From the NCBI GenBank assembly GCA_022432975.1, contig CM039508.1:16418609-16482608 (forward strand): 64,000 nucleotides of DNA, read 5' to 3'. Below the pieces are notes generated by a model, which worked only from the letters and a program-made list of their open reading frames with translations, had not been told where the DNA came from and made no database searches. Numbering within the stretch: the first letter of the stretch is position 1; the number at the start of each line of letters is the position of its first letter. Shown here in pieces: positions 1,317 through 59,686 of the stretch. The position numbers and the translations under genes are program-made. The DNA comes from Begonia masoniana. Its lineage: Eukaryota; Streptophyta; Magnoliopsida; Cucurbitales; Begoniaceae.

Positions 1317-1479
1317 TGTAACACCCGACATTTCGGCCAGGTGATTTTCTGACCATTTTCATTGTCACCCCCTTTTATTTAACCTTTATGATTTAAATTT
1401 AATGTTAAGACAAAATTTATTACAAGTTGAGTAAAACTAGGTTGGGTGGCAGATTTGTAATTAAAATTGATGGATTGAG

Positions 1480-1489
1480 TATAAATAGG
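1480..1489 (+). promoter_or_regulatory. LTR TATA box
   Basis: TATAAATAGG stands 163 bp from the LTR start and is followed by a conserved ACTGTAGCCGAC stretch that probably begins the R region. The same spacing is seen in S7 (43971-43980). Related LTRs have TATTTAAA at similar offsets: S3 (9087-9094) and E4 (59517-59524, minus). Confidence 0.6.
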
Positions 1490-3007
1490 AAATGGAAACC
1501 TTAAACCTCATTTATTACCACTGTAGCCGACATTCCCTCTCGGCGATTTCTTCTCTCCCAAGTTCTTGCTCTCGGCTACCAGAACTTTCCTTTACCGACG
1601 GCTGGTTTCAGCTTGCCTTTCCTCTACGAATCCGTATCCGAGGTATACATTGACATTGTGGCTATCTATTAGTTTGTTACCCTGTTCTCAGCTCGGCGTT
1701 TGAGTTTCGGTCTTTATCAATGGTCGTGTGATATTAGAACATTGTGTAAACTGAGTGTGGTAACGTCCTTCCCGAATCGATTCTGATCATTTAGAGTAAT
1801 CAACTCAGTTTCAATCGATGGTAGAACCTGCCTGCCTATTTTTGGATTTCTGGCAACACGGTGTATCAAACAGAGTATTTAGGAATGACTTTAGCTATTA
1901 GAGTCCTAGGACGATTTATGAATAGAACTATTAGGACCTTTGTTTTAACTACTGTGATGTACATGTTTTAGGTGAAGAAGTTTAAAGGGAAGGAGCTCGG
2001 ATTGCTAAGGAATCCAGGTAAGTGAATGTATTAAGGTTTCCGGCCACTAGGGCCCTACACCGCAAGGGTATTAGGAAATCATTGAGATGTTAGTCTGTTG
2101 ATTATGATTAGTTATTACTATGATATGAAGAATTGGTGTAAGAAGATGTTAAGTTACGGGATGTTTTTGCTTGTCCTTATGATATGACTTCTCTCTATGA
2201 ACTTTATGTCTATGCACTGTGTCCACGTTATGACTAAGTTGAGAACATGAAAAGCAAATGTAACCATGATTAAGTGCAGAACGGGGGAAAAGACTATGAC
2301 ATGTATGACTCGCGAAATCTCCCACTGGGGGAGGCCGAGTTAATGGTATGTATGGCTCGCGGATTCTCCCACTGGCGGAGGCCGAGTTGATGATATGTAC
2401 GGCTCGCGAATTCTCCCACTGGGGGAGGCCGAGTGATGTATTTTGATTGCCGCGATAGGCAAATGACTATGTACCGCTGCCTTCCTCCCTCGTTTCCTGC
2501 CTTAATACATGCCATGTAAATAATGAAAATGAACATGAATGAAGAAAGGTTTATGAACTTGTGTTCTTTAATTTGTGCACTCATGTATATCTGTCAGCAT
2601 GCATTCCTTACTAAGCATTAGGCTTATAGTTGAACCTTATGGTGTAGGTGAAGAAGGCTCAGGTGAGGATACTATGTTCAAAGAGGATGCTTAGGGCTGG
2701 TTGCTGGGGGATGCTCAAAATGACAGTGCAGGGCCGGAAAGGCGATTTATGACCCCTGGTTAATGCTCTTTTGTTTCAGTATAATAAAGGATATGGTAGT
2801 TTAAGTAGGATGAGATTATTTATAATGTGAGCCTTGAGACTGTCTAGTTGATCACTGAGTCAGGGAATGATTATATAGATTTATAAATGATCTGTAGCTT
2901 AAGTCTTCCGCTATATGCATTCTGAATGAGTTGTGGTTTCTTTCTGTGGAAGGAGTCATTTGATGATTTAGTGTTTTCTACCGTAAGATGGAAGCTGGAT
3001 GAGGCAA

Positions 3008-5564: not shown

Positions 5565-6599
5565 TGTAACACCCGGTTTTACAGGATTTTTGTAATTCCA
5601 TTATATAATGGTATTTTTGTAAATATGTCAAATTATGTCCGTTTTGGGAACAAAAAGTTTTAATGGAGACCTAACAATAAATTGGAATTATTGGTAAAAT
5701 AAGAAGATTTGGAGAAAATCGAGTCGTTAGTTAAATAAAGATGTAAGCAACGAAATAAATAGGAAATCAAAGGAAGGGCAAAACGGTAATCCATCAAGTT
5801 AAAATTTTTAACTTAAGCAAAATCTGTAATGCCCCCGAACCCACCCTGGTTCGGTGCGCTACTTAGCTAAACAATCCCACGTTAAAACATAATTTAAATA
5901 AAATTGACACAACAGAATTTAAAGCTAATTCTTCCTAAGTTCTCTCTAATTTAAAACCTAGCTACCTAGACTCACTAATTTCCCTAAATCCTAACCTTTA
6001 AGCACCACGACATCCTTCCGAAAATTTCAGCAAAGTAACGCCTGAAAATGGCGCCTCCAAAATGCTAGGTACCTGCAATAAAATCCAATCCCAAACAAAC
6101 CAGAATATTCTAACCATCTAACCAACCTACGAAATCTCCAAATAATAGTAAAGAGGGAACTAAAATACGAACATCCCTAAGTGAAGAAAGTCCACAATAT
6201 AGGGCGATACATCACCCTTAACTATATACCACCAAACACATAGCTATCCCATAACTGTAAAAAACATCAACCAAAATAATACTTACGCATTCCCATCAAT
6301 TCCACAAACAGACATTTACAATATTACTAAAATACAAAACCCCACATTCTCCCGAAGACCATGGTCTAGGCGCGCCGACAACTGCCCGCACCGGCATGCT
6401 CCGTGAATCTCTGACTGCCCCAAATCCTTGGTTCCTTTATCAAGCTCATCTGTATCTGCGCCGTTACCTACACCATAGAACACACACACACACACGTAAG
6501 CTTACGTTAGCAAGTAGGGGAAAACAAATATAAAAATATGCACACACGACTCTCACACAACCCAAACACGCATAAAAGTCTAGCTCCCAAGATTACCCT

Positions 6600-7570: not shown

Positions 7571-8493
7571 AAGCAATAACACAACAAGTTTCCTACCGTT
7601 CCATGGTGTAGGCCCGAAGGCAAAACAATTACAACCCACTACTTACCTGGCGTCCTAGCTCGCTGAGGATACTCGATTACCTGTCCATCTATAGCTCAAC
7701 CTACGACAAATATTCAAACCTCATTAAAAATTAAGCCTACATTTACCAATTACTCTCAAACTACTATTTCTAGCCTAATACAACTTAAACTTAACTAAAC
7801 GGGCCACTAATTTGGGTTCGGTAAAAACCGACCCAAAACTTCGAACGCGCGTAACTTTTGCGTCGGATATCGGAATCAAACGATTCCAGCAACCACGTAC
7901 TCCTCTAATAACCTATATTAACCTGCCAAAAGGAATTTTGAAACAAACGACCGTAGCTAGGTCAAAATGGCAAAAACCCGAACTGCCCCTTAACCCGGAA
8001 TTTCCCCTTTTCTAGTTTTTCATCAATTCTCATTCAATTCCTCACCAATTAACTACCCTAACATCCAATTAACAAAATCGAACAAAAAACCAAGGTTTCA
8101 CACAAGAAACCCGAAGCTCAGAGAAAGGGGTTCTCAGATTTTGGTTCAATCCGAGCTCCCTGTTGCTCGGCAATCTTTGCCGATGTTGAGCTCGGCAATC
8201 AGATGCTAAGGGCAGCCAAAAACGGCCGGCGATCGGAGCTCTAGCAGCTCGGCGATCCCCAGCACAGACAGAACACAAAAACAGAGCAAAAACCAACGTA
8301 CCGGATCGGTTAGTGCGCGGAGTCGGCCGGAAATGCTAGCCCATGGTTCGCCGCCGTCGTCTGGCCGGAGACCGTTGGAAATCGCAGGTGAACGGCGCCG
8401 CGTCGCCTCCCTTTCTCCCCTGTTCTCCTCTCGGCCGTCGGGCTCGAGCTCGAACACAAACAACAGAATTGTTTTAACCATTCTGTTGTTTTA

Positions 8494-8948: not shown

Positions 8949-11242
8949 TGTAACACCTAGTTCTATCAAACCAATTCTATATTTTTTTTTAATTAATGGC
9001 ACACTTTTTGGCAATAATGAAAGTAGGGTTAATGGATGACTAGGCAAGGGCATTAGGGTAATTGGAAATTTTAAAAGTGGATAACGTATTTAAAGAAAGG
9101 GATTTTGGGTTTAATGTACTGTAGCCGCCACTCTTTCCCTACTCTCCCCTCTCGATATTCAGCTCAAGCAGCAGAGCTCTCTAGGCGATTCTTCCATCCG
9201 ATTTTGTCCAAACTAGGTGAGTTCTATTTCGATTTCTTGCTGCATTGGTAACTATCTATGATTTGGGGAGTGGATAAATGTGAGTTTCGAGAATGCTGTG
9301 AGCGAACTAGTTCGGGTTTTGTGGTAATTGGAGATGTATAACGAACTAAGCTCATAAACTAGTTTCCTTAGGCTTCTGGATAGTGTAGAATGAGGTTTAG
9401 TAAAATCTAATCGATAATCTGTCCATGGTTTTAGGTTGAGTAAGCTCCCAAAGTTGTTTGCAACACCGAGCATTTCCAGGAGAGCCAGGTAAGTGAAGTG
9501 TGCTTGAGCCCTCGGGCCTACATCACAAAACAGTAGGTTTTCTGCATGTTGAATGTTTTCAGTTTGGTCATGCATCATGTTTTGAAAGAATACGAAAATA
9601 AATTTACATGGAATGTATGGTGAGGCATGAACAGAACGTATCATTATAGCTGTTAAGGGAATTAATCCGCCCCTTAATTGATGAAGTGGATTTATAACAT
9701 TGGGAGAGTTGATCCCACTCCCAAGGGAACCTGGGGATCATTATAGCCGTTAAGGGAATTAATCCGCCCCTTAATTGATGAAGTGGATTTATAACATTGG
9801 GAGAGTTGATCCCACTCGCTGTTAAGGAAATTAATCCGCCCCTTAATTGATGAAGATGATTTATGACTTTGGGAGAGTTGATCTCACTCCCAATAGAATA
9901 TTGAGATCAGATTACGATGAATGTGAATGCAACTGAGCTGAGAAAGTAGAAACTGCATGATTAAGATTTACATTTCAGCATTTCATTTCATGATTGCTTC
10001 ACTTATTTAGCATTAGGCTAATAGATGAGTTTTGTGATGTAGGTGAAGAAAAGACAGCAGATGTGTTCTCTGAGTTTGTTGAGAGCTAGGCAGGTTGGAG
10101 GGGTGCATTCATGCATCGAACTGGCAGCTGACGGGGCGGTTTAACTGATGTCAGTAGTTGTGAAGGTTTAGTTGACAATGTTTCAATTTAAGTACGTTGA
10201 GTTTTTATAACAGTAGCAGTTTTAATGTTTTTGGAATACATCTTGAGGCTTTTCTGTTAATGATACTCTGTCAGTTTAATAGTGGTTTTACCATATTTCG
10301 GAGCAAAGCACTGATTTAAATAATTTTGAATGGTTTTTAGTAAAATGTTCATGTTCTACTGGTAGTAGGAGTTTTCTTATTAGAGTGGAATTGTTGCTAT
10401 GCTGTTTTCGTTGAGTATTTTTGATCTATCGGTAGATGATGTCTATCGGCAGACGTAGAGTTGTTATTCTGTAGCCATCGGATGATGTCTTCAAATAAAG
10501 CCGTTGAATGATGTCTTCAGTAAAAGTCATCGGAAGATGTCTTCAGTAGAAGTTTTGTCGTTTAGTGATCAGCGGATGTCGTGTATTAAACCTATCAGAT
10601 GATGTAGTAGAAGTTTATCGTTTAGTGATCGATGGATGTCGGGTATTAAACCTATCGGATGATGTAGTAGAAGTTTGTCATTTAGTGATCGGTGGATGTC
10701 AGGTATTAAACCTATCAGATGATGTAGTAGAAATTTGTCGTTTAGTGATCGGTGGATGTCGGATGTTAAACCTATCGGATGATGTAGTAGAAGTTTTGTC
10801 GTTTAGTGATCGGTGTACACAGTTTGTTCTTTCGGAAGACGTGAGTAAAAGATTTGTCGTCTTGTGATCGGCAGAGGTTGGATGAACGATTCATCCGACT
10901 GACGTCATCGGTGGAAACCTTCGGTTTATTTCTGCCCTTTTGTTGACTTCGTTCAGCGGATGATGTGTTTGACTTTTATGAACTTTAGATATTGCACGCG
11001 TAAGCCTTCGTCTCTTCCGGCCGAATTCTTTTCTACATATTTTTAACTGAATATTCGAACACTGTTTTATAGGTTTGCTTAACTTCGCTTTGCTCAAAGA
11101 TTTTCCGCTGCAAGTTTTTTTGTGTTTTTAGCAAACGTTCAAATTTGACTTTCGAGCGAAGTTTTAAATTTGGTCCGAAATTTTCTAGTTATGTTCGGGT
11201 TTATGAGTAACGAACTGGGTTTATAAAACTCGGAGCGTTACA
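8949..11242 (+). mobile_element. Solo LTR S3 (chromovirus-type)
   Basis: Begins TGTAACACCTAG and ends CGGAGCGTTACA. The exact target duplication GCTTA is at 8944-8948 and 11243-11247, inside LTR A1. TATTTAAA at 9087-9094 is a probable TATA box. Candidate intron 2 is 9489-10042 with perfect 15-base complementary ends CCTACATCACAAAAC (9517-9531) and GTTTTGTGATGTAGG (10029-10043). A 95-bp unit is repeated two to three times at 9643-9890 (inside the intron) and a 60-bp unit about five times at 10555-10880. No gene. Confidence 0.9.
10555..10880 (+). repeat. 60-bp tandem array in S3
   Basis: About five variable units of 60 bp built on GTTTAGTGATCGGTGGATGT and TATCGGATGATGTAGTAGAA. It is related in wording (ACGTCATCGG, GGTGGATGTC) to the 54-bp arrays of S1/S7 and to the LTR of E4, so these LTRs share ancestry. 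Confidence 0.8.
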
Positions 11243-12591
11243 GCTTATGGGATGTTAGATTTCAGTTTTCGCGAAGTTAAACGGTTAGGGTTTCGTTTAG
11301 GATTTTTGGGAAATAGCCGGGTTATGTTAGAAACAGCTAGGCTTACCCTAATTATGACTTTGGTGGACGTATTAATGAACATTGGAAGTAGTTGGGCGAG
11401 TTAATGGCCATTAATGCGAATTTCGGGTGGTTGGAAGTTTTGAAAACTCCATTAATGGAGGTTAAGGATTCACGAGCACGAATTGCTCGATGAAATGCCT
11501 CAATGAGTCAAAATAGAGTTTTAGGAAATTTCCTTTAGTTAGGAGTTCCATTAGCTTTCAAAGTTCGATGATTTAGGCTTGGTTTAATGCCGTGTGTTGT
11601 GAAATGTTATGGGTGAACAACGCTCGTGGACGGAGCTTGGTGTGCTAAGGACGCGAGGTAAGTCTTTGTGCTTTGTATGGCCGATTTGGCCTACACCAAG
11701 AGTTATAATGTTATCGAGGCTTTTGGTGAACTCCGTAGTTGTAGAGTAAGTGGTTGGGTAGTTTAGTAGTTTAGGTTGTGGTGCGTCTTTTTAAGATTAA
11801 TTGTTTGTTCCCTATGTTAATTATGAACTGTACATGCATTACACTTTTTCAAATTGGCATGAAAAGGAGTTTATTCACGGTTTTATGAAAAGAAATGAAT
11901 TAATGTAAAGAAACGAATGGACGTAATCCCGGTCTCGACGGGGTGGGGTTCAGACATGGCTGTCTAGTTGGTGAAGCATGTTTTTCCCCCGGTAGATGGA
12001 AAGGGCTGTCTAACCGCCAGACGCCCTCTCCATCTGGTGAGAGTAGACCTTGGTGACATCCTGTTATGTAACTAAATGATCCCGATGATTGCATGATTTT
12101 ATGAATGACATATGCACAACATGCATTCGCATTTACGTAGATTTATTGAGCCTTTAGCTCATAGTTTATCTCTATGGTGTAGGTAATTTCGAAACAGGTG
12201 AGGATGACATTCCTCCACCCGACGCATGAGCAGGTTGAAGGAGGATGACCCGTGGGAGTGTGCTGGGCAGTCGATGCGTATTTTGACCCGTGGGGATGTA
12301 TGTAAGTATTTTGGGTTACATTGGGTAGAAAATGTGTAAATAGTATATTTAGGTTGTTGTAAGAATTAGTTGGAATATGATGTTGTTAATGGAAATGTTT
12401 TGATGATTTCGGAATTTACTGGAATTGCTTGGTGATTTTAAACTTCATAGGGATTTTATTTAGTTTTCAAACGGATCCACGCAATTCGTTTTCGTGAAAA
12501 CTTACTTCATTTTTACGTCTCGAGTCGGTTTTTGAGTGAGATTATAAAGGATGTACGAGTGTCAAGTGATTTTATGTTGAAATGTATTGTA

Positions 12592-14064: not shown

Positions 14065-15774
14065 TGTAACACCCGGTTCTTCAGTTTTTCAGATTTTGCT
14101 GAATAATGGCATTTTCATAAATATTGTGGATTAAGTCCGTTTTGTAAACGGAATGTCGTATTAGAACCCTAATGATTTATATGGATTTTAGAAGAAATAA
14201 AGAAATTTCAGAAATCCAAATTGATAGTGTGACACTCGGGTTTCTGTTTTAAACTTTATAGTGTTTAATTTGCAAAAATAGTAAATTAAGTCCCTTTTAC
14301 GAACGAGAAGTTTCATTAGAACCCTAGGAGTAAAATGGAATTTATGGTGAAATAAAAAATGTTTGGAGAAACCGGATTGTTAGCCAATTAACTGAGACAA
14401 GAAGGAAATTAATAGATAATTAAACAGAAGGGCAAAAAGGTAAATGCCTGCCAAAATTTATTGCAAACAACAACTTCTTCTTCTTCCCTCAACACTCACG
14501 CAATTTCTCTTTTTTTCTCTCAACCCTCATTGGCGATTTCTCTCCTCTCAACGGCGACTTCCTCCTTCCGGCGACCAACGCCCCTCCGATTGACTTTGGT
14601 TCTTCACGTTTTCTTCTCCAAACCCGACCCTAAGTAAGGTTCTAAGCTTTTGGAACGTTAGATCTCGATTTCTAGAGTTTAAACGGTTAGGGTTCGTTTA
14701 GGATTTTCGTTAAAAATGCGGATTAAGGTTTGAAATTGATAGGTTTAGCGTAGTTATGCCTCTAATTGAAGTATTAGTGGTTATTGGACGTAGTTAGACA
14801 ATTTATTGGCGAATATTATGGTTTTGAAGGTTTTGAGCTTTGGAAAAACTCCATTAATGGAGGTTTACAAATTGAAGAGCATGAATTGCTCGATAAAATG
14901 CCTCAACAAGTTAAATTAGAGTTTTAGGAAATTTCTTTTAGCTAGGAGTTTGTTGTTTTCGAAACTCAATGGTTTATACTCGATTTAATGACGAATGTTG
15001 TGAATTGTCTTAGGTGAACAACGCTCGTGGACGGAGTTTAAATTGCAACGAACGTGAGGTAAGTCTACGTGTTTGTTTGGCCGATAAGCCTACACCGTAA
15101 GTCAAGTTTGTTGTTGAGGATTTTGGTGTTATGTGCTTTTACATGCTTTGGTTGGGTAGTTAGGGTTAGTTGTCTTTTATAGGTTATGCTTGCGACGTTT
15201 GATGGTATCCACGATATATGTTTACATTATGTTAATTATGATCTGTACATGTATTACGTTCTTTCAAAATAGCATGAAAACTGATTTCTGTACGTGTTTA
15301 AGAAAAGAAATGAATTAAAGAAACAAATGTACGTAATCTGGTCACGACAGGGTGGGGTTCAGACATGACTGTTTACGGATGGAAGCATGTTTTCCCCCCG
15401 GTAGATGGAAAGGGCTGTCTAACCGCCAGACGTGCCCTCTCCATCTGGTGAGAGTTTAGACCTCGGTGACATTTTGTTCTGTAATGAAACAATAAAAATG
15501 TCTGCATGATTTATGAACCGCATACGCACAGCATGCATTTGCATTTACGTAGATTTGCTGAGCTCCTTAACTCATAGTTTATTTTCTATGGTGTAGGTGA
15601 ATTCGATACAGGTGAGGACGACGTTCCTTCACCCGACGCATGAGCATGTTGACGGAGGATGGCCTGTGGGAGTGCGTTGGGTAGTCGACGCTATTTTGAC
15701 CCATGGGGACGTAAGTAAATGTTTTTGGGATTTTGATAGATAGAAACGTAGGAAAATTGTATAGTGGAACCATA

Positions 15775-18246
15775 TGTAACACCTCGAATTAATAAACTCG
15801 GTTCGCTACACACTCTCACTGAACTGAACTAAAAATTTAAAACTTTGTCTATGGATACATCGTTTAATCCAAAAAAAACTTGCAGCGGAAAACATTCATG
15901 TAAAACAGAGGCATTTCGTAAACAGGCTAGAAAAATCTTTCAGTTTAAATAAAATAATAAAGAGAAAACGTTCGAAACTTCTCTGCGACATCTACAGCCA
16001 GTTTGACGCTACTGGGTGATCTGGCATCCACAGAGTCTGTCGTTCCCAACCTTGGACAATATACTTGTCTACGGCTCTGGACGACGGACTCTGGACAAGC
16101 GACTTTGGACGACGCAACTCTGAACGATGTACACTGAACGACATCGCTTTGGACGACTTTGGATGACTGTATTCGCTCGCAGAGTGGACGACAACCTTAT
16201 CTTAGGATTACTTAATGACTTTGGACGACTGTTCCTCATCGTCCACAGCTACATAGATTTTTCGCCTATGGATTATCGTCCACAGACTTACATAGTTTTA
16301 TCGTCCACGGAACACGTGACTTTATCGTCCACGGTTCACGTGACTTTCTCGTCCACGGAACACGTGACTTTGTCGTCCACGGTCCACGTGACTTTCTCGT
16401 CCACGGGGTTACACAAACTCATCGTCCACGGACCAACATCCATGGACTTACTTAAATTTTTTGTCCACGGACCACGTGACTCTATTGCCCACGGATCACG
16501 TGACTTTATAAACTTGGACGACTACTGTGAACGGTATCACTTCAGACAACTTGTCCACATAGTAGACAACTGTTTACAACTTCGACCCTGGACAATATGC
16601 TCGTCCACGACTTTGGATGACTATTTTCGCCTCCAGTTTGGATGATTATCTCTATGACAGAAACATGACTTAACCGATTAAACACTAAACGATGGACAAT
16701 TCTGACTACAGGAGAACATATTTTTATTTGACAGCAACCATTCAAAACAACGTAAATCCTTAACTTACTAAAAATTCAGAAGGAAAACTCCAGTTAAAAC
16801 CAACCATGTTTTATCGTCAGAATAATTTCAAAAATGTATCAAAATATTAAAACTCATACTGGTTTAAAATTCTCAGCACACATTAGCTAAACATTTGTCC
16901 ACTAAGTTCCACACATACTACCATTGGTTAAACCGCCTCATCAGTGCACCAGATCGAGGCAGTGGATGCACTCCTCCAACTGCGCCTATTCCTCAGTATA
17001 CTCAGGGAATTCACCTGTAGTCGCCTCAGCACCTACATCACAAAACTCATCTATTAGCAAAATGCTAAATAAGTAGAGCAATAATGAAATGAAATTGCTG
17101 AAACATAAATTCTATTCATGCTGTTTCTACTCTCATAGTTCATGTTGCATTTATAATCGTTCTCTGTTGATCCCCCTGTTCGATGGGAAGTGGATCAATT
17201 TTCCCAAAGTATACATCCTCTAACTCGATTAAGGGTTGGATTAGTTCCCTTAATAGCTGATCTTGATGCCCTTGTTCGATGGGAAGTGGATCATTTTTCC
17301 CAACGTATCTATCCTCTAACTCGATTAAGGGGCGGATTAATTCCTTTAATAGCTGATTTGGTTCAATCTGCTCATACCTTACCATGCCATTACATGTAAA
17401 TTCGTTTTCGTATTCTTTCAAAAACATGATGCATAACATACTGTAAACATACAAACACGCATAAACCCTACTGTTTTGTGATGTAGGCCCGAAGGCACAT
17501 ACATACTCTACTTACTTGGCTTCCTGGAAAATGTTTGGTGGAAGGTTACCTCGGGAGTTTGCTCAAACCTAAAACCATAAATACAGTATTAACTTAACTT
17601 CTACTAAGCTTCATTCATCAAATTTGCGAAAGGAAACTACTGGTTCATTCCAAACTAAAGTTGGCTCGGTCGTGGCTCACCAAAACTCAAAACTGCCCCA
17701 AAACAGCACACTCAAGACTCTCTATTTTATTCCACCATAAACTGTTTATCAAATCTATATATTCTATTCATCCTAAATCATCCAGAAATCTAAGGAAGCA
17801 AGTCGGGAATTCAGTCCCACGAGCATTCCCCGATTCACCACAAAACCCGAGCTCAACTCTCACTCGCAGCATTCCTAAAACACACATCAACAATCCCCTC
17901 TATCATCTATAATCACTAAAACAGCAAGAAACCAAAGTAAAATTCACCTAGGTTGAAGAAAAATCGGAGAGGAAGTCGCCGAGAGGAATCTGCCAAGCTG
18001 AGCACCGAAAAGGGAGAGAAGAAGAGGAGTAGGTGGCGGCTACAAAGCATTAATCACAGAACCCTTTCCCTTAAATACATTATCCACTAATAATCTCAAT
18101 TACAATTATACCCTTGTCTAGTCACACTTTAACCTCATCACTATTTCTCCCAATTTATTACTCAAGCAATTAGTCACAAGCACTTAATTTCATAAAAACA
18201 TACGCCATTAAAAGTCAATTCGAGTTGATAATTGTTGGGTGCTACA
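15775..18246 (-). mobile_element. Solo LTR S4 (S3-related, reversed)
   Basis: Plus strand reads TGTAACACCTCG...GGGTGCTACA with the exact target duplication CCATA (15770-15774, 18247-18251). On the minus strand candidate intron 2 runs from 17515 (GTAAGT) to 17033, with perfect 15-base complementary ends at 17473-17487 and 17032-17046, identical to those of S3. A TATA-like TATTTAA is at 18071-18077 (minus). A tandem array with G-box cores lies at about 16270-16510. No gene. Confidence 0.88.
16270..16510. repeat. About 24-bp array with CACGTG (G-box) cores in S4
   Basis: Units of about 24 bp built on TCGTCCACGG and ACGTGACTTT. Six exact CACGTG palindromes fall at 16313, 16337, 16361, 16385, 16473 and 16497; the first four are spaced exactly 24 bp. 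CACGTG is the core bound by plant bZIP and bHLH factors; function here is inference. Confidence 0.85.
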
Positions 18247-20270: not shown

Positions 20271-23200
20271 TGCTTGATTAGAGATTGCAAAGCTAAAACA
20301 TAAGAGTTAGAAAGAACTTAAAAACCTAAATGCATTAACTAATGAGAAAATGTTTAGCACTTTAAATTAGAAGACGTGCTTAGGGGTTTAAAGCAACTAG
20401 TATGACCATAGAAGGGATGACAATTCAACCAAAGTGAGTCTATAGTTGGTATAGTTTAAGTTAAGAACCACAAACGTGAGGCTTACCTCTGGAATGGAAG
20501 TAGGAATATCAGTGTTCGGGAGACTCGGAGGGTAAACCTTAATAAAGAGATGATTCTAAATTAGTGGAGAATAAAAGGGCAAGATCCGAGAATTTAAGAG
20601 GTTTGGATCGAGGGTGTAAACTTATTTACAACAAGTTTGGAAACAAGAAGACCATTGGATGAATCGTCGCACTGGAACCAAGTAGAATACTTAGAACCCG
20701 ACTAGGAGGAACAAAAGAGGGTAGACCATTTACAGACTTCGAAGAAATCCTTGTGCAACGTTAAGGATGAGTGAAGGGGATTGTTGGATTAAATGAAGGG
20801 TTAAAATTGGAAGTCTAGTATAGGGTTTAACGTCATACGATTTGTGAAATTAGCGATTTATCGAATAAGGAGAACGAGAAATTTCACAGAAGCTATTAAG
20901 TAAACTTAAAGGCGAGGTTAAGTTAGAAAAATTTCAGCGGTTCGACTCGTATTGGACAAGTCGATACCAATAAATACGCAAATGACCTAAGGCTAGAATT
21001 AATAGTTTAGAGCAAACCAATGGTGAAATTAGAGACTTGATAGTACTCGGAGTTCATGAAAATTGGAGTATAACTATGATCTAAGAAAATAGCTGAGGAA
21101 AAGCGTCAATTCAAGGCCCTGTGCTAAGTTTTGATCAAGGAAATCTAAAATAGGACCAAATTAGATGAGTTAGAAGGTTTAACCTGTGGCGTCCCTAACA
21201 CTGTACCCTTAACTTCCCCGTATGTTTTTTTTTTATCCCTATAAACTTTAAGTTTATTGTTAAAGTGAAAAACCATTTGAAAATCCTTTAATAAAACGTA
21301 TTTAAAGTAAAGAAAACTAAAGAAAACATTTAAATAAAACAATTAAAACAATAAAAGAAGAATCGGCCAAGCAGAATAGAGGGCAAAAAGGGCCCAAGCC
21401 CAAAATTTTCCTGTTCACATCTACCGCTCACATCCACCGCTCACTTCTGCCAAGCCACATCCACCGCTCACTTTTGCCAAGCCACATCCACCGCTCATTT
21501 CTGCCAAGCCACATCCACCGCTCATTTCTGCCAAGCCACATCCACCGCTCATTTTCACTGTACACTTTTACCGCTCACATTCACTGTACACTTCTACCGC
21601 TCACATCCACCGCTCAACAGTAACCGAACACATCTGTCTGTTGACTTTAACCAATAACTTATATAAACTTCTACCGATCACAAAACGACAGAATCTACTG
21701 CTTACATCTACCGCTCAACAGTAACCGAACACATCTGTTGGTTGACTTTGACCAAACACTTATATAAACTTCTGCCGATCACAAAACGATAGAATATACT
21801 ATTTACTTCTACCGCTCAATAGTAACCGAACACATCTGCCGGTTGACTTTGACCAAACACTTACATAAACTTCTGCTGATCACAAAACGACAGAATCTAC
21901 TGCTTACATCTACCGCTCAACAGTAGCCGAACACATCTGCCGGTTGACTTTGACCAAACACTTAACTGAAACCCATACAATTTCCCCTTGTACTTACACA
22001 TTATTCACTCAGAACTTCCAAAAATATTTAAAATAACATTCTCCATTTTCAGAAACATCAAAATGAACATTATATACATATATGTTCACGAACTATCCAA
22101 AATATACATCTAAACATCAAATATGAACTATCCAGAAACCAAACATCCAAAAATGTTTCTAACTATACAATTTTCTATATTCCTATCTATCAATTTCCCA
22201 AAACATTTACCTACGTCCCCACGAGTCAAAATAAGCTCCAACTACGCCAGCACACTCCCACGAGCATTCTTCTTCAAACTGCTTAAACTTCGGGCAGAGG
22301 AACGTCGTCCTCACCTATATCGAAGTCACCTACACCATAGAAATAAAATGTGAGCTAGAGGCTCAGTAAGTCTATGTGAATACACGTGAATGCTATGCAT
22401 GTACAGTTTATAAATCATGCATCCTACCTTTTCGCTATTCATTTCATTTATGTCACCGGGGCTTCACTCTCGCTAGATAGGAGCGGCACATCCATCGATT
22501 GGATAGCCCCTTGTATCTAACCGGGGGAAAAACATGCTTCATCTGACAGCCATGTCTGAACCACAGCCACCGACGTGACCATCATTACATTCATTTACCT
22601 TTTCGTTTTGAAAAAACATACATACAAATTCCTTTTTTCGTGCTTTTTATTAAAACCATGATGCGTGCATGTGTACAACGACATAACAAAAATGAAGCAT
22701 GCAAATAATAAAATTATACATTCAATAATCTAACTAAACTAACTACCCAACCTAATTACCCAACACAGCGAGCATCTCCAATTCCTCGATTGACATAGTC
22801 TTATGGTGTAGGCCAATCGGCCAAACGAGTCACGGAGACTTACCTCGTGTTCGTTGCAACTCAAGCTCTGTCCATGAGCGTTGTTCACCTCAGGCAATTC
22901 ACAACAACCTTCATTAATTCAACTCATTTGCACCAACGACCATAAATACGTAAATTTGAGCCATAATGACGGAAACTCTATCGATCTCAAACCCTATTTC
23001 ACGTTTCTAACAAAGCCCTTATCCGTGTAACCCTAGAAATTGAAATCTAAAGCTCCAAAACTATTGATTCATACCTAGAGTTGGTTTTGGAGGAGAAAAC
23101 GTGAAGAAACTTTGAAGATCGGAGAACGAATCGTCGGTGTTGAAGAGGAGAAGCGCCGTGAGGAGGAAGAAGAATCGCCGAGAGGAAGGAGAGAAAATGA

Positions 23201-29935: not shown

Positions 29936-31115
<1,180 letters not shown>

Positions 31116-31156: not shown

Positions 31157-31523
<367 letters not shown>

Positions 31524-33001: not shown

Positions 33002-33616
33002 GTGACGAGATTTACTCAAGTGAGGTGGATGAGACAGCCCAGGACTAGGCAGCAGTTGGTGATGCATGCAGTATGCCGGTGCAGGCTATTGTTAGGGCGC
33101 CTCGACCATGGTCTTCGGGGGATGTAGGGGCTTTATATTTTGGTAGTTTATTTTAGATGTCTGTTTGTAGAAATGATGAGAATGCGTAACTAATTGTATT
33201 TGTTGTATATAGTCATAGTTAGGGGTGATGTGTCGCCCTATACTATGGACTTTCTTCATTTAGGGATGTTAGTATTTTAGTTTCCTCTTTACTGCTATTT
33301 GGTGATTTCGTTTGCTGAATAAGTTAAGTAGAAGTATTCTGGATTGGTTGGGATTGGATTTTATGCAGGTATTTAGCATTTTGGAGGCGCCATTTTCAGG
33401 CGTTACTTTGTCAAAATTTTTGGAGAAGACGCCGTGATATTTAAGGGTTAGAATTAAAGGAAAATTAATGAGTCTAGGCAGCTAGGTATGATGTAAGAGA
33501 GTTTTGAGAGACTTAGCTTTAATTCTACTGTGTCAATTTTATTTTAAATTATGTTTTAACGTGGGATTAGTTAGCAAAGTAGCGCACCGAGCCAGGGTGG
33601 GTTCGGGGGCGTTACA

Positions 33617-36919: not shown

Positions 36920-37927
<1,008 letters not shown>

Positions 37928-41682: not shown

Positions 41683-43807
41683 TTGCGTTGTCGTACTGCA
41701 TTAAGGAATAAGGCATCGTTGATGCGGGCAAATTTGTGTTTTGTTTCGTGTCGTTGTGTTGTTTGGTTGTTTGGTTCAGCGTTGTGTGTAGCTTGCATTT
41801 TATCTAGTCGTATTTGTTAATCCCTACTTGCTAAGCCTAAGCTTACGTGTGTGTGTGTGTTCTGTGGTGTAGGTAACGACAGGTGTACAGGTGAGCTATG
41901 TGAGTCAGCCTAGACTTGGGAGCAGTCGGAGATGCACGGGGCGTGCCGGTGCGGGCAGTTTTCGGGGCGACTCTACCATGGTCTTCGGGAGATGTGGGGC
42001 TTTATATTTGATAGTTTATTTTAGATGTCTGTTTGTAGAAATGATGGGAAAGCGTAACTAATTGTATTTGTTGTATATAGTTAGGTTAAGGGTGATGTGT
42101 CGCCGTGTATTTGGAGGTTTTATATGTGGGATTGTTGAGTGGATAGCTGGTTAGTGAAGTAAGATTATTCTGGATTGTTTGGGATTGGATTGTATGCAGG
42201 TATCTAGCATTTTGGAGGCGCCATTTTCAGGCGTTACTTTGCCGAAATTTTCGGGAAGGATGCCGTGGTGCTTAAAGGTTAGGATTAAAGAGTCTAGGCA
42301 ACTAGGTATGACCTAAAAGAGTTTTAGGAGATTTAGTTTAAATCCTGCGGTGTTAATTTTATTTTTTTTAATGAGGTTTTAGCGTGGGATTAGTTAGCAA
42401 AGTAGCGCTCCGAGCCAGGGTGGGTTCGGGGGCGTTACACTTCGCGGCCGAGCGCGAAAAGGGGAGAGACGAGGGAGAGGCGAGCGACGATCGACGACCG
42501 TTCACCGCCGTGGTTTCCGACGTTCTCTGGCCAGACGACGGCGGCGAACCATGGGCTCGCGTCTCCGGCTGACTCCGCGCACTAACCGACCCGGTAAGTT
42601 GGTTTTTGCCCTGTTTTGTGTTTGGTCTGTGCTGGGGATCGCTGAGCTGTTAGAGCTCCGATCGCCAGTCATTTTTGGCTGCCCTTAGCGTCTGATTGTC
42701 GAGCTCAAAGCCGGCAAAGATTGCCGAGCAACAGGGAGCTCGGATTGAGCCAAAATCTGAGAACCCATTACTTTGAGCTTCGGGTTTCTTGTGTGAAACC
42801 TTGATTTTTTGTTAGATTATGTTAATTGGATGTTAGGGTAGTTGATTGGTGAGGAATTGGATGAGAATTGATGAAAAACTAGAAAAGGGGAAATTCCGGG
42901 TAAAGGGCAGAATCGGGTTTTTCCATTTTTGACCTAGCTACAGTCGTTTGTTTTAAAATTCCTTTTGACAGGTTAAAATAGGTTATTAGAGGAGTACGTG
43001 GCCGCTGGAATCGTTCGATTCTGATAACCGACACGAAAGTTATGCACGTTTGAAGTTTCGGGTCGATTTTTACCGAACCAATTTAGTGGCCCGTTTAGTT
43101 AGGTTTTAGTTGGATTAGGCTAGAAATAGTAATTTGAGAGTAAGTAGTGAATGTAGGCTTGATTTTAATGAAGTTTGAATAATTGTCGTAGGTCGAGCTG
43201 TAGATGGACAGGTAACCAAGTATCCTCAGTGAGCTAGGACGCTAGGTAAGTAATGGATGCGTGTTTGTTGCCTTTGGGCCTACACCATAGAACGGAAGGT
43301 ATTGTTTGTTTGATTGCTATATTTTAAATTCGTGTCATGCATCATGTGTGATGCATCATTGTTTTCTAAACTACGAAACCACGTGTTTTGCATGTTTGAG
43401 GGGTGAGGATGAAATGAAAGATAAGAATTGATATGCAACTTGGTCTCGAGTAGAATAGCTTCGTCAGGCAAGTGGCTCGTTGAGCACCCCGTGAGGGATT
43501 TTATTCTAGATGCTATGCTAATGTACGTAATGTGTCGTGAGTATGAATGCCTCGACCTGTTCGTGCTTGAAGGCACAATGAGGATTCTACGATCGATTGG
43601 AGGAGATTCGTGTTGGCTGTCCCGGACTGTGTTAGGACGTGTGCCTTCGGTCTTGCTCCGTGGGTCAAGGTGTGGCCGTCTTGGACTGTGTTGGGGCGTG
43701 TGCCTACTTGATTCACATGAAAGTGAAAGATAAATGCAACCTGAATGAAAAGAAAATCACAGAGTGTGTAGAAACTGCATGTTAGGGTTGAGTCGAGCAT
43801 GTGTTGA

Positions 43808-46800
43808 TGTAACACCCGACATTTCGGCCAGGTGATTTTCTGACCCTTTTCATTGTCACCCCCTTTTATTTAACCTTTATGATTTAAATTTAATGTTAAG
43901 ACAAAATTTATTACAAGTTGAGTAAAACTAGGTTGGGTGGCAGATTTGTAATTAAAATTGATGGATTGAGTATAAATAGGAAATGGAAACCTTAAACCTC
44001 ATTTATTACCACTGTAGCCGACATTCCCTCTCGGCGATTTCTTCTCTCCCAAGTTCTTGCTCTCAGCTACCAGAACTTTCCTTTACCGACGGCTGGTTTC
44101 AGCTTGCCTTTCCTCTACGAATCCGTATCCGAGGTATACATTGACATTGTGGCTATCTATTAGTTTGTTACCCTGTTCTCAGCTCGGCGTTTGAGTTTCG
44201 GTCTTTATCAATGGTCGTGTGATATTAGAACATTGTGTAAACTGAGTGTGGTAACGTCCTTCCCGAATCGATTCTGATCATTTAGAGTAATCAACTCAGT
44301 TTCAATCGATGGTAGAACCTGCCTGCCTATTTTTGGATTTCTGGAAACACGGTGTATCAAACAGAGTATTTAGGAATGACTTTAGCTATTAGAGTCCTAG
44401 GACGATTTATGAATAGAACTATTAGGACCTTTGTTTTAACTACTGTGATGTACATGTTTTAGGTGAAGAAGTTTAAAAGGGAAGGAGCTCGGATTGCTAA
44501 GGAATCCAGGTAAGTGAATGTATTAAGGTTTCCGGCCACTAGGGCCCTACACCGCAAGGGTATTAGAAATCATTGAGATGTTAGTCTGTTGATTATGATT
44601 AGTTATTACTATGATATGAAGAATTGGTGTAAGAAGATGTTAAGTTACGGGATGTTTTTGCTTGTCCTTATGATATGACTTCTCTCTATGAACTTTATGT
44701 CTATGCACTGTGTCCACGTTATGACTAAGTTGAGAACATGAAAAGCAAATGTAACCATGATTAAGTGCAGAACGGGGGAAAAGACTATGACATGTATGAC
44801 TCGCGAAATCTCCCACTGGGGGAGGCCGAGTTAATGGTATTTATGGCTCGCGATTCTCCCACTGCGGAGGCCGAGTTGATGATATGTACGGCTCGCGAAT
44901 TCTCCCACTGGGGAGCCGAGTGATGTATTTTGATTGCCGCGATAGGCAAATGACTATGTACCCCTGCCTTCCTCCCTCGTTTCCTGCCTTAATACATGCC
45001 ATGTAAATAATGAAATGAACATGAATGAGAAAGGTTTATGAACTTGTGTTCTTATTTGTGCACTCATGTATCTGTCAGCATGCTTCCTTACTAAGCATAG
45101 GCTTATATTTGAACCTTATGTGTAGTGAAGAGGCTCAGGTGAGGAAATAAGGATGCAGTGCTGGGATCTGACAGTGTAGGCCGAAGGCGAGGTTATGCTC
45201 TTTTTGTTCAGTAATAGGTAGTGTAGTCTTCCGGCTGACGTCATCGGCAGATGCCGAATGATAGTAGTTTGATGGTTTAGTCTTCCGGCTGACGTCATCG
45301 GCAGATGCCGAATGATAGTAGTTTGATGGTTTAGTCTTCCGGCTGACGTCATCGGCAGATGCCGAATGATAGTAGTTTGATGGTTTAGTCTTCCGGCTGA
45401 CGTCATCGGCAGATGCCGAATGATAGTAGTTTGATGGTTTAGTCTTCCGGCTGACGTCATCGGCAGATGCCGAATGATAGTAGTTTGATGGTTTAGTCTT
45501 CCGGCTGACGTCATCGGCAGATGCCGAATGATAGTAGTTTGATGGTTTAGTCTTCCGGCTGACGTCATCGGCAGATGCCGAATGATAGTAGTTTGATGGT
45601 TTAGTCTTCCGGCTGACGTCATCGGCAGATGCCGAATGATAGTAGTTTGATGGTTTAGTCTTCCGGCTGACGTCATCGGCAGATGCCGAATGATAGTAGT
45701 TTGATGGTTTAGTCTTCCGGCTGACGTCATCGGCAGATGCCGAATGATAGTAGTTTGATGGTTTAGTCTTCCGGCTGACGTCATCGGCAGATGCCGAATG
45801 ATAGTAGTTTGATGGTTTAGTCTTCCGGCTGACGTCATCGGCAGATGCCGAATGATAGTAGTTTGATGGTTTAGTCTTCCGGCTGACGTCATCGGCAGAT
45901 GCCGAATGATAGTAGTTTGATGGTTTAGTCTTCCGGCTGACGTCATCGGCAGATGCCGAATGATAGTAGTTGATGGTTTAGTCTTCCGGCTGACGTCATC
46001 GGCAGATGCCGAATGATAGTAGTTTGATGGTTTAGTCTTCCGGCTGACGTCATCGGCAGATGCCGAATGATAGTAGTTTGATGGTTTAGTCTTCCGGCTG
46101 ACGTCATCGGCAGATGCCGAATGATAGTAGTTTGATGGTTTAGTCTTCCGGCTGACGTCATCGGCAGATGCCGAATGATAGTAGTTTGATGGTTTAGTCT
46201 TCCGGCTGACGTCATCGGCAGATGCCGAATGATAGTAGTTTGATGGTTTAGTCTTCCGGCTGACGTCATCGGCAGATGCCGAATGATAGTAGTTTGATGG
46301 TTTAGTCTTCCGGCTGACGTCATCGGCAGATGCCGAATGATAGTAGTTTGATGGTTTAGTCTTCCGGCTGACGTCATCGGCAGATGCCGAATGATAGTAG
46401 TTTGATGGTTTAGTCTTCCGGCTGACGTCATCGGCAGATGCCGAATGATAGTAGTTTGATGGTTTAGTCTTCCGGCTGACGTCATCGGCAGATGCCGAAT
46501 GATAGTAGTTTGATGGTTTAGTCTTCCGGCTGACGTCATCGGCAGATGCCGAATGATAGTAGTTGATGGTTTAGTCTTCCGGCTGACGTCATCGGCAGAT
46601 GCCGAATGATAGTAGTTTGATGGTTTAGTCTTCCGGCTGACGTCATCGGCAGATGCCGAATGATAGTAGTTTGATGGTTTAGTCTTCCGGCTGACGTCAT
46701 CGGCAGATGCCGAATGATAGTAGTTTGATGGTTTAGTCTTCCGGCTGACGTCATCGGCAGATGCCGAATGATAGTAGTTTGATGGTTTAGTCTTCCGGCT

Positions 46801-48977: not shown

Positions 48978-49659
48978 GTTGATGTGCTGTGAATTATTTC
49001 CCGACTTGCTAAGCATTAGGCTTATGTTTTGTGTTCTATGGTGTAGGTGACGAGATTTACTCAGGTGAGGTGGATGAGACAGCCCAAGACTAGGCAGCAG
49101 TTGGTGATGCATGCAGTATGCCGGTGCGGGCTATTGTTGGGGCGCCTCCACCATGGTCTTCGGGGGATGTAGGGCTTTATATTTTGATAATTTATTTTAG
49201 ATGTCTGTTTGTAGAAATGATGGGAATGCGTAACTAATTGTATTTGTTGTATATAGTCATAGTTAGGGGTGATGTGTCGCCCTATACTGTGGACTTTCTT
49301 CATTTAGGGATGTTAGTATTTTAGTTTCCTCTTTACTGCTATTTGGTGATTTCGTATGCTGAATAAGTTGAGTAGAAGTATTCTGGATTGGTTGGGATTG
49401 AATTTTATGCAGGTATTTAGCATTTTGGAGGCACCATTTTCAGGCGTTACTTTGTCAAAATTTTTGGAGAAGACGCCGTGATATTTAAGGGTTAGAATTA
49501 AGAGAAATTAATGAGTCTAGGTAGCTAGGTATGACATAAGAGAGTTTTGAGAGACTTAGCTTTAATTCTACTGTGTCAATTTTATTTTAAATTATGTTTT
49601 AACGTGGGATTGGATAGCAAAGTAGCGCACCGAGCCAGGGTGGGTTCGGGGGCGTTACA

Positions 49660-56531: not shown

Positions 56532-57172
56532 TGTAACGCCCCGAGTTCTATGAACCCGGTTTGTTACTCATAAACTCGAACATGACTCAGAAACTTTGAA
56601 CCAAATTTAAAATTTCGCTCGAAAGTTTAAATTTGACATTTTTTAAAACCTCAAAACATTTAGAGACTTGCAGCGAAAATCATTTGAGCAAAAATAGAGT
56701 TAAACAAAACTATAGAACAATGTTTGAATAATCAGTTGAGATGTTAGGGAACATTCGGCCAAAAGAAATAAAGGTTTAAATCGCGAAATACTTTAAAAAT
56801 TGCAAAAGTCAAACTCATCTGCCGTTGTACAAAGTCAACAAGAGGGCAGAAATAAAACTGAAGGTCTCCACCGATGACGTCAGCCGGATGAGTCGTTCTT
56901 CTAGCTTCAGCTGATCGCAAAACGACATGTTTTGCTACTGCATCTACCGATGACGTCAGCCGGATGATTCGTTCATCCCGCCTCAGCCGATCACTAGACG
57001 ACAAGTCTTTTACTCACGCCTTCCGGTAGATAAAATACTCAACATCATCCGGTTACAAAACGACAAATTACATCCTACATCTTCCGATGGATTTAACACA
57101 CGACATCCACCGGTGACAAAACGACAAAACTTCTACTACATCATCCGATGGATTTAACACTCGACATCCACC
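56532..57172 (-). mobile_element. LTR fragment (S3 family 3' end, reversed)
   Basis: TGTAACGCCCCGAGTTCT and the following 640 bp are the reverse complement of the last part of S3 (compare 10600-11242). It stops at CATCCACC where E4 is inserted; the remainder should lie right of the window. Confidence 0.8.
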
Positions 57173-59686
57173 TGTAACGACCCCAATTGGAGTCACAACC
57201 TAATTCATAATTTAACCTCTGAATCATCTTGGTCTTACTTTCTACACTTTGTTCATTATTTATGTTATTATTATTTTTTTTTAAAAAAAGATACCTCTTG
57301 AACTGCATCTACCGATGGAAAGAAAACTCACATCAACCGACGGTCACGTGCCCACCACGCGACACATCTCACCCCATCTAGTGAAAGGCATCTAACGGCG
57401 ATCACGGACCTTACACGTGTCCAAAAGACGTCACTCGGTCTCGGACATCTATCGCCAGATGTCCACAACTTTAAGCTACATCGACCGGTGGTCATGCGCG
57501 CCTCGCGTGACCAGCTAAAACTTTACTCGAGCACTAAACGACAAGGAATTATTTACATCATCCGGTAACTAGGCGACAAAACTATACTTAAATCTTCCGA
57601 TAGCTTAAACACACTACATCTACCGGTCACTGGACGACGAAATAACATTTACATCATCCGGTAACCTAAATATATTTCATCTGCCGGTCATTGGATAACA
57701 AAATAGCACTCTCATCATCCGATAGCTTAAACAACCTACATCTACCGGTCACTGGACGACGAAATAACATTTACATCATCCGGTAACCTAAATATACTTC
57801 ATCCGCCGGTCACTGGATGACAAAATAGCACTCTCTTCATCCGATAGCTTAAACACACTACATCTACCGGTCACTGGACGATGAAATAACATTTACATCA
57901 TCCGGTAACCTAAATATACTTCATCTGCCGGTGGATGCAACACTTCACATATTCCGATAGCTTGACATCTATCGGGGAATGCAAATATACACAGACTCCA
58001 AACTTCGATGACTCATCACTCTTATAGATAAAAGACAGAAACTCATCCAGAATTCTTATGGTGGAAGACTTAGTTAGATAACATGTTCTATATCCTTATA
58101 GACATTCACAAACTCAGTAATTAAACCAGACAATCATAAAATCCAGTATTCAAAGGAAAAATCTCATTTTACTTGAACATCAGTTTATCTTAAATCTTAC
58201 TGACACTTTATGAGCTTAACTACGGGTCATATTCGCCTGCCAGCCACAGACTTCCACCCTGAGCACCATCCTGCAACCGGCCTTAGACATCATCACAGAA
58301 TTTTGAATCCTCACCTGCTAAATCTTCACCTACATCATAAGGTTTAAACTATAAGCCTAATACTTAGTAAGGAATGCAATACTAACAAGTATGCATGAAT
58401 GCTCATTTTGAGAAACAAATGCTCATGAATCTTTTCTTGTTCGTATTCATACACAAAATCTCCATTCTTATTCATCATTCGTATTCATCGTTCATAATCA
58501 TCATTCATATTCATCATTGATATTCATCATTCATATTCACCAATCATATTCATCGTTCATGTTGTGTGGATTAAGAGAGGATTTGTTCCGGTAAAGGGGG
58601 TTGACAGTGAGAGTGTACATAGTCCCTTGCGGGTCGTAATCATGGTCCTTCCTTTTGGACAGTGACATACGTCAAATCGCCCCCAACCCTCACTTAATTC
58701 ACGTTGCATAAGTTTTACATCATTATCTTGGTCATGAGGAAAATGTGCTCTTAAAAAGATTTTCATATGCATAAAAACATTCATGATGCATGGACATGGG
58801 AACTCTTAATTCATCAAGCTACAGAATAGTGCATTCATCCGTCGTGAAATCATATCATTAGTCAAACATCAACATAAGTAACAGGCAGTAGCTTAAATAA
58901 CTTCTAATTATCGTATCAGCTTCTACCTAGCATCCTTGTGATGTAGGGCCCTAATGGCCCGGAATCCTACACATTCACTTACCTGGTTTCCTTAGCAACT
59001 GAGCTCCTTTTCTTCAGACTTCTTCACCTAAAACATTTACATTGCAGTAGTTAAAACAAAATCCTAATAGTCCTAATCACTAGCCACCCTAGAGTCTAAT
59101 AGCTTAAATCATTCCCAAATCCCTTAGTCTAATTTCTCTGTACACAGTCTGAAATAAAAAAAAAACCATAACAGCTAGATTCAACTTCGATTAATCAGGA
59201 TTGGTTATTTTAAGTGTCCAGAATCGATTCGGAATGACATTACTAATCTCGGGTTTTAAAATGTCCCAATTATTACTCGGCCATTGAAGAATCCAAAACT
59301 TCAACACTTAGTTGAAAACAGAGCTTAACAACTAACAGATAGCTACATTGCCAAACTCGTACCTCGAGCACAAAGTAGCCGAGAGGTAAGCAAAGAAACC
59401 GATCGTCGAAGGAGGTATTTCTAGTTGACAGAGAGCGAGAGCTCGGAAGAGAAAATCGCCGAGAGTAATGACGGCTACAGTGAGGTTTAATTGGGGTTTG
59501 AATCCTTTCCATTTTCTTTAAATACTGGTCTCAATCCTCCATTATTACAACTTTGCCACTCAACCTAGTTTAAATCCACATGTAATTAATTAAGCTTGGC
59601 ATAAAATTCTAAATCGTGAAGATTGAATAATCATGACCGTTAATACAGTTAGGAAGTCACCTGGTTGAAGTTGTCGGGTGTTACAT
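57173..59686 (-). mobile_element. E4 3' LTR
   Basis: Minus strand TGTAACACCCGACAACTTCA...GGGGTCGTTACA, 2514 bp. TATA-like TATTTAAA at 59517-59524. Candidate intron 2 from 58982 (CAG|GTAAGT) to 58330, with ends CCTACATCACAAGG (58934-58947) and CCTTATGATGTAGG (58329-58342) pairing at 13 of 14 positions. An array of about 120-bp units (CATCATCCGG, ACGACGAAATAACA) repeats roughly three times at 57610-57950. Confidence 0.9.

Follow-up and report, generated by a model that had tools for sequence, protein, structure and literature searches.

Conserved pairing among the splice signals of a candidate intron in Ty3-like long terminal repeats of Begonia masoniana

The window analysed here, 64,000 nucleotides (nt) of Begonia masoniana DNA (GenBank assembly GCA_022432975.1, contig CM039508.1, positions 16,418,609 to 16,482,608), holds a set of elements that look like the long terminal repeats (LTRs) of Ty3 elements, each with a candidate intron whose ends pair with one another. 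The sample consists of 12 LTRs in four clades, all from this one 64-kb window; they were retrieved through the core of the pairing arms, CCTACAYCR, and their donors through a search for GTAAGT. The core occurs 26 times on the two strands of the window, against 1.4 expected, and 24 of these matches are the arms of the 12 LTRs. The remaining two are 5' arms: one belongs to A3 (24854), a copy with the 5' arm only and whose 3' end was not found, and one to S1b (44546), which has kept its 5' arm and whose 3' arm lacks two bases. A tree of the end blocks, taken together with which LTRs align mutually, places both E3 LTRs (5' and 3'), S2, S6 and N368 in clade I, S3 and S4 in clade II, S1 and E4 in clade III, and A1, A2 and A4m in clade IV.

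Target duplications of 5 bp flank both TG...CA LTR ends in the three copies checked (S1 ACTTC, S1b GTTGA, S2 AAATC). Behind the A2 LTR lies an exact TGGTATCAGAGC at 18970, which we take to be a tRNA-Met primer site; it recurs with two mismatches at 33620 behind E3. In E4, the element whose pol was read, the order is protease, reverse transcriptase, RNase H and integrase (PR-RT-RH-INT), over minus-strand open reading frames (ORFs) at 61113-63314 and 59727-61112. This pol is similar to those of angiosperm Ty3 elements (best 120 of 7,981 matches), which makes the elements likely chromoviruses, Ty3 elements of the Tekay/Del-like type; a match to the chromodomain PF00385 at residues 415-459 is weak (E 0.0026, 18.1 bits) and falls below the cut-off of 25.1, so the label draws on pol similarity. 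The Tekay/Del-like name, which also appears in PMC6317226, is provisional here. Scans of viral contigs with the E4 pol ORF, two donor-side patterns and one branch-side pattern returned no relative, and five loci in bacterial metagenome-assembled genomes, obtained by pattern scan of genome contigs, were set aside as chance, as the only TGRTGTAGG in each falls within the matched site, on the opposite strand, leaving no second arm.

All 12 LTRs share one order from 5' to 3'. A GTAAGT donor comes first, and arm 1 begins 27-36 nt past the first base of the intron; then come a loop, a motif resembling a branch site, and arm 2, which ends in TGTAG|G. Arms 1 and 2 make up a long-range helix, P1, and the blocks that contain them also hold the strands of a second long-range helix, P2, and two hairpins, H1 and H2. 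The blocks, and four candidate upstream introns used as controls, are as follows.

32377..32424, plus strand: E3 5' LTR, 5' block (P2 strand 32377-32388; H1, GCC-UUCG-GGC, 32401-32410; arm 1 32410-32424)
32954..33002, plus strand: E3 5' LTR, 3' block (P2 partner 32954-32965; H2 from 32966; arm 2 and 3' splice site 32988-33002)
43246..43293, plus strand: E3 3' LTR, 5' block (no P2 pairing at +7 to +9)
48998..49047, plus strand: E3 3' LTR, 3' block (solo LTR S1b, 43808-48977, lies between the two E3 3' blocks)
39129..39170, plus strand: N368 (nested LTR 36884), 5' block
41820..41873, plus strand: N368 (nested LTR 36884), 3' block
7598..7646, minus strand: S2, 5' block (arm 1 7612-7598)
6467..6521, minus strand: S2, 3' block (P2 partner 6521-6510; arm 2 6481-6467; H2 shifted 2 nt)
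28622..28669, minus strand: S6, 5' block (arm 1 28636-28622)
28037..28087, minus strand: S6, 3' block (P2 partner 28087-28076; arm 2 28051-28037)
9489..9531, plus strand: S3, 5' block (arm 1 9517-9531)
9995..10043, plus strand: S3, 3' block (P2 partner 9995-10006; arm 2 10029-10043)
17473..17515, minus strand: S4, 5' block (arm 1 17487-17473)
17032..17080, minus strand: S4, 3' block (P2 partner 17080-17069; arm 2 17046-17032)
2018..2068, plus strand: S1, 5' block (arm 1 2054-2068)
2600..2648, plus strand: S1, 3' block (P2 partner ends 2611; bulged U at intron +6; arm 2 2634-2648)
58933..58982, minus strand: E4 3' LTR, 5' block (arm 1 58947-58933)
58329..58378, minus strand: E4 3' LTR, 3' block (P2 partner ends 58367; one bulged U; arm 2 58343-58329)
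11658..11704, plus strand: A1, 5' block (arm 1 11690-11704)
12135..12183, plus strand: A1, 3' block (P2 partner 12135-12146; arm 2 12169-12183)
15059..15103, plus strand: A2, 5' block (LTR followed by the exact TGGTATCAGAGC at 18970)
15547..15597, plus strand: A2, 3' block (P2 partner 15547-15558; arm 2 15583-15597)
22798..22843, minus strand: A4m, 5' block (arm 1 22812-22798)
22329..22377, minus strand: A4m, 3' block (P2 partner 22377-22366; arm 2 22343-22329)
24824..24868, plus strand: A3, 5' block alone (no 3' intron end found)
44510..44560, plus strand: S1b, 5' block only (3' arm minus two bases)
1643..1971, plus strand: S1, candidate upstream intron 1, control (GAG|GTATAC to TTTTAG|GT, ends unpaired)
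9217..9434, plus strand: S3, candidate upstream intron 1, control
17569..17947, minus strand: S4, candidate upstream intron 1, control
59028..59362, minus strand: E4, candidate upstream intron 1, control

Some of these copies are nested. At 8776-11242, S3 seems to lie within intron 1 of the A1 LTR, with a 5-bp duplication GCTTA, and S4, to judge from its ends, within the A2 LTR at 14065-18966. S1b is 98% identical to S1 over 1.35 kb; at 45030-45180 it shows several single-base deletions in short runs relative to S1, resembling uncorrected long reads.

The first-pass annotation had described P1 as a stem joining the ends of a candidate intron in every complete LTR. Its arm letters and coordinates agree with the sequence in every case checked, S5, E2 and A1 included, and both arms are present in the 12 LTRs; since it was the arm core that retrieved them, the word "every" gains no independent test from this set. 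Over the first 15 pairs of P1 in the 12 LTRs, 158 cells are Watson-Crick, nine G-U, five A-C and eight other. Seven of the 15 pairs are invariant, and pairs 7, 10, 12, 13 and 14 vary on both sides, as had been reported. Arm 1 and the end of arm 2 are separated by 455-618 nt in nine LTRs, and by 1145, 2717 and 5768 nt where arrays or an inserted LTR lengthen the loop. The nested minimum free energy (MFE) structure of the whole intron includes P1 in eight of the ten LTRs folded, and a scan of ten LTRs for long-range stems, listing those with at least 11 Watson-Crick pairs in one run, ranked P1 best in five and second in A4m. For the duplex formed end to end, 48 or fewer of 1,000 shuffles were as good in ten LTRs; its energy was -35.6 kcal/mol for an LTR's own ends, -36.2 within the same family and -30.2 between families, own pairs beating random assignment (2 of 10,000 permutations) and not other members of the family. 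The arms are more complementary within an LTR than between families, as the first-pass annotation had required, but on P1 alone the margin is narrow (13.9 of 15 pairs against 12.8 of 15, with 2 of 24 family permutations as good, the identity counted).

P2 joins intron positions +1 to +12, the 5' splice site, to a partner whose end lies 37-43 nt upstream of the first base of exon 3. It was first met in S4, where the donor forms the second-best stem with bases immediately preceding the branch motif. The partner of +1 to +6 is, like U1, complementary to the donor consensus, and in that sense U1-like. Over these six positions the donor strand is fixed, being a search key, and the partner drifts to G-U; over +7 to +12 both strands vary. 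Here 60 of the 72 within-LTR cells are paired, and the figure between clades is 2.0 of 6. Only the true assignment of the 24 possible among clades does as well, and among 5,040 assignments of seven lineages six are as good, the true one included. Two-sided changes occur at +7, +8, +10, +11 and +12, with A:U, G:C or C:G at +7 and G:C, A:U or U:A at +8 (one broken copy aside); even S3 and S4, of a single clade, differ at both +7 and +8 and are compensated on the partner side. In nine of the 12 LTRs, five or fewer of 500 shuffles were as good when the donor was set against its own 40-nt target. No P2-like pairing is seen in the upstream introns of S1, S3, S4 and E4, these four being the controls that count among six listed (A4m gave no acceptor, and the A2 donor was 5 nt off). 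The misplaced A2 control gave 47 of 500 for the donor and 4 of 200 for the ends.

H2, a hairpin of five pairs in most LTRs, lies downstream of the P2 partner and upstream of the 3' arm of P1 and holds the branch-like CTNAY motif. In 11 of the 12 its first base immediately follows the P2 partner (in S2 the hairpin is shifted by 2 nt), and in 11 its last base is the A of CTNAY. Pair 2 of H2 is A:U, U:A or G:C depending on the clade, and the base that varies is the free N of CTNAY. H1 sits directly before arm 1, with GCC and a UUCG-like loop in clades I and II and GGCC and other loops in clades III and IV; its stem is nearly invariant, and it is no more than suggestive. The strands run P2, H1, P1, loop, P2', H2, P1' from 5' to 3', and P2 and P1 cross, so that they would give a long-range pseudoknot if both form together. 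P2 and H2 abut in 11 of the 12, which would place G+1 next to the branch A. No Rfam family matches the fold at the gathering score, the matches in the window being two 5S rRNAs elsewhere.

The statistics of the whole fold used a MAFFT alignment, unedited for column shuffles and slid registers and with three rows corrected by hand for the tree nulls. In the fold 91.5% of cells are paired and 36 are two-sided, with a covariation score of 0.306, and none of 500 column shuffles or six slid registers reaches these values for cells paired, two-sided cells or covariation score. Under each of two tree-aware nulls P1, P2 and H2 taken jointly are equalled by none of 500 simulations in cells paired and two-sided cells, and P2 alone by none or one. 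P1 alone is equalled by none of 500 under one of the nulls, where H2 alone is equalled by three (cells paired) and 12 (two-sided). An R-scape-like G-test against the tree null, which has little power with 12 sequences, ranked pair 2 of H2 and pair 7 of P1 third and fourth of 1,953 pairs of variable columns; limited to the 34 proposed pairs, only these two pass (0.003 and 0.004). Mismatches in P1 and P2 are G-U in 30 cells against A-C in seven (9:5 in P1, 21:2 in P2), counts in which related LTRs share cells and are not independent, and this excess of G-U points to pairing in RNA rather than to paired DNA sites. The pairing is conserved, and the case for selection on an RNA structure, made in the first-pass annotation from P1, becomes stronger than first shown because a second helix, P2, covaries too; the fold itself would be expected to form in the cell.

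The ends that pair carry the marks of an intron. In all 12 LTRs a single GTAAGT lies within the 60 nt that precede arm 1, and the acceptor at the end of arm 2 reads TGTAG|G, both motifs being search keys; a CTNAY motif, degenerate and deliberately looked for, places its A 21-29 nt before the AG in all 12. MAGGTAAGT occurs eight times in the window against 1.06 expected, always within the 12 LTRs or S1b. A further donor, CAGGTGAG, was not a search key and occurs eight times against 1.2 expected: 15 or 18 nt past the acceptor in seven of the 12 LTRs, and the eighth time in S1b (2660, 12195, 15609, 41888, 45136 and 49062 on the plus strand; 28022 and 58317 on the minus strand). Lying just past the acceptors, these sites raise the possibility that a third intron follows and that exon 3 is a 15- or 18-nt microexon. 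The placing of the stem on intron ends is thus reinforced by several motifs, from which we infer a GT-AG spliceosomal intron in the transcribed leader of each LTR; none of the 12 spliced junctions is present in the window.

The candidate upstream introns of S1, S3, S4 and E4 define exons 1 and 2 in those LTRs. With the start of exon 1 set 30 nt past the TATA-like box, these exons hold no ATG in 667 nt, against 8.2 expected by composition and 2.5 with dinucleotides kept, and their reverse strand holds six; intron 2 of the same LTRs holds 121 in 2,320 nt against 49 and 79, and its reverse strand 58; four of six further introns also exceed the dinucleotide expectation. When the donor is joined to the acceptor, one frame stops 15 codons on, junction codon counted, in ten of the 12 LTRs (33002-33048, for example), with TAG, TAA and TGA all in use. 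A coding exon 3 was considered and dropped, since exon 2 lengths differ in phase (45, 46, 49, 53, 54 and 60 nt, those of E3 and the A-type LTRs read by eye), several copies of exon 2 have in-frame stops, and exons 1 and 2 of S1, S3, S4 and E4 are without ATG.

We propose that the LTRs carry a spliceosomal intron whose fold limits its splicing, so that full-length RNA survives as genome, and on balance we give this a little more credence than doubt. P2 would tie the 5' splice site to the U1-like segment, H2 would hold the branch adenosine, P1 would cover the 3' splice site and H1 would cap the 5' strand of P1. The fold would compete with U1, U2 and U2AF for the same bases, leaving only part of the transcripts spliced. 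Spliced RNA would go to translation; RNA that retains the intron, with its many upstream AUGs, would be translated poorly and would serve as the reverse transcription template able to regenerate a full LTR. In LTR reverse transcription an RNA without the intron cannot rebuild the LTR from its 5' end. Since both splice sites lie in the LTR, this would apply here, and an element with strong splice signals would have to hold back part of its RNA. A fold tying up all three signals would do so, and would link retention to an AUG-rich leader. The earlier suggestion that the stem hides the acceptor is in this way widened, donor, branch motif and acceptor all lying in helices, and the other suggestion made then, that the stem brings the intron ends together, becomes the main rival. 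A fuller version, which we hold tentatively and with more doubt than belief, is that plant chromoviruses of at least four LTR clades possess a dedicated, pseudoknotted splice-or-keep switch made from parts of the intron itself, its two splice sites and its branch hairpin, and including a cis-encoded U1 mimic, which would sort spliced mRNA from full-length genome without a Rev-like protein.

A number of results weigh against this reading. The arms and GTAAGT were selection keys, so that their presence in all 12 LTRs is partly built in; a second CTNAY lies 37-39 nt before the AG in six; and an ATG falls in the first 45 nt of exon 3 in nine LTRs and exon 2 of N368 contains two, so that ATGs occur in the spliced leader too. 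The pairing is uneven as well. P1 is missing from the scan list in S1, E4, A1 and A2, and in S1 and E4 a C-A mismatch interrupts it and the nested MFE structure leaves it out (pair probability at most 0.09), with 444 and 190 of 1,000 shuffles, respectively, as good for the end-to-end duplex. P2 requires one bulged U, placed by eye, in S1 and E4, and pairs only three of the six positions +7 to +12 in the E3 3' LTR and N368; single-donor pairing is weak in these two and in A1 (35, 35 and 70 of 500). As many as 95% of shuffles are beaten by H2 in only three LTRs and by H1 in one, and P1 and P2 may be alternatives rather than coexisting helices. Two coarser measures of the five fall within the column shuffles (139 and 376 of 500), and the stricter tree null equals P1 alone in 61 (cells paired) and 40 (two-sided) of 500 and H2 alone in 131 and 131. 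In the G-test over all pairs no structure pair reaches E < 0.05 (best 0.50 and 0.73), the two top-scoring pairs lie outside the structure, and P2 +7 and +8 rank 29th and 46th (0.15 and 0.21 among the 34 pairs).

The main rival, which we think unlikely, holds that the fold helps splicing by joining the intron ends, bringing G+1 beside the branch adenosine and making long loops irrelevant. Splice signals within helices are usually blocked, and here they would lie inside helices of 12 and 15 pairs. Cases of masked splice signals are described in the excerpt of PMC11802352. What such a bridge does explain is why H2 should follow directly on the P2 partner in all copies except S2, and why all 15 P1 pairs (G-U counted) are kept despite loops that contain 304 copies of an 8-mer (N368), a 99-bp array (S2) or, in the E3 3' LTR, a complete LTR; the yeast zipper stems (PMC12350175, as excerpted) offer a precedent. 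Better splicing would nevertheless bring little benefit to an element whose LTR is rebuilt from unspliced RNA. The fold might instead serve the unspliced RNA directly, as a packaging, dimerisation or nuclear export element lying over the splice signals, and the same covariation data would fit. Retroviral packaging signals do lie beside the major donor. A pseudoknotted export element of an animal LTR element, the musD transport element (MTE), is likewise known (PMC12786077). We find this distinctly improbable as the fold's sole role, as its helix strands coincide with donor, branch motif and acceptor, which suggests that access to the splice sites matters; it is compatible with the proposed lock on splicing as a second role.

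Two further explanations dispense with a functional RNA fold. Shared ancestry combined with splice-site constraint, the complementarity being incidental, would account for P1 arms that vary little between families, for the failure of P1 and of H2 alone under the stricter tree null, and for a general covariation test, of low power, that singles out few proposed pairs. The slid registers, the result for P2 under both tree-aware nulls and the absence of pairing in the upstream introns of four LTRs make it very improbable. Scarcely credible to us is the idea that the arms are inverted copies of a protein-binding site in DNA and P2 a by-product of the splice consensus: the invariance of seven P1 pairs is what a binding site would show, but G-U far exceeds A-C over P1 and P2, P2 covaries where no splice consensus reaches, +7 and +8 each showing three Watson-Crick pair types, and H2 has three pair types at one position.

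Structures at splice donors are familiar from retroviruses. HIV-1, foamy viruses and human T-cell leukaemia virus (HTLV) have donor hairpins or donors in the R region, and there the balance of splicing and packaging is set by structure at the major donor. Those hairpins are local, whereas the LTR fold is long-range and also covers branch site and acceptor. Among the literature matches listed, as far as their excerpts go, no paper describes a conserved RNA fold across LTR splice sites. The zipper and downstream stems of Saccharomyces (PMC12350175, in excerpt) likewise link the 5' splice site and branch point sides of an intron by pairing; those stems are placed between the signals and reduce the distances, and species differ considerably in the zipper stem regions. 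In the LTR fold, by contrast, the signals are themselves helix strands, lying within P2, H2 and P1 rather than outside a stem, the helices cross, and the arrangement is kept across four LTR clades. Folds are also described in the nonconventional and intermediate introns of euglenids (PMC4770533); in the nonconventional ones the borders vary and +4 to +6 pair with -8 to -6. The candidate LTR introns have canonical borders, and their +4 to +6 do not pair with -8 to -6 but with bases about 40 nt or more before the acceptor.

Among LTR retrotransposons, BARE1 (PMC3735527), Ogre and EVADE (PMC6317226, PMC12786077) yield spliced mRNA and full-length RNA, as is proposed here, in BARE as separate RNA pools. 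The excerpts of these papers place the Ogre and EVADE introns in the coding region, have BARE splicing lead to a Gag-only RNA and mention no structural lock; unlike all three, the LTRs considered here hold both donor and acceptor. The musD transport element (PMC12786077, in excerpt) is, like the fold proposed here, a pseudoknotted structure that serves the full-length transcript of an LTR retrotransposon; it acts in export and is not described there as built of splice sites. How one LTR retrotransposon transcript is divided between translation and copying is posed as an open question in the excerpt of PMC3735527, and a 2025 review states that plant LTR elements are generally without introns (PMC12786077). 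If the proposed lock on splicing is true, a large group of plant transposons merits re-examination as regards introns, LTR-encoded leaders and RNA pools, and a fold made of all three splice signals would have unusual covariation support.

The window has other notable features. Extreme arrays include 1,001 A (36925-37925), 304 copies of TGTTGTGG in the N368 intron loop (39253-41682), 393 TAA (30307-31510), 50 copies of a 21-mer (26292-27337) and 60 of a 54-mer (45224-48430), and some of them may be assembly artefacts. Two repeats that are 88% identical, at 51601-51884 and 53368-53650, stand about 1.8 kb apart. On the minus strand of each is a stretch resembling 5S rRNA (51677-51787 and 53442-53554; Rfam RF00001), and the pair looks like a Cassandra-type element.

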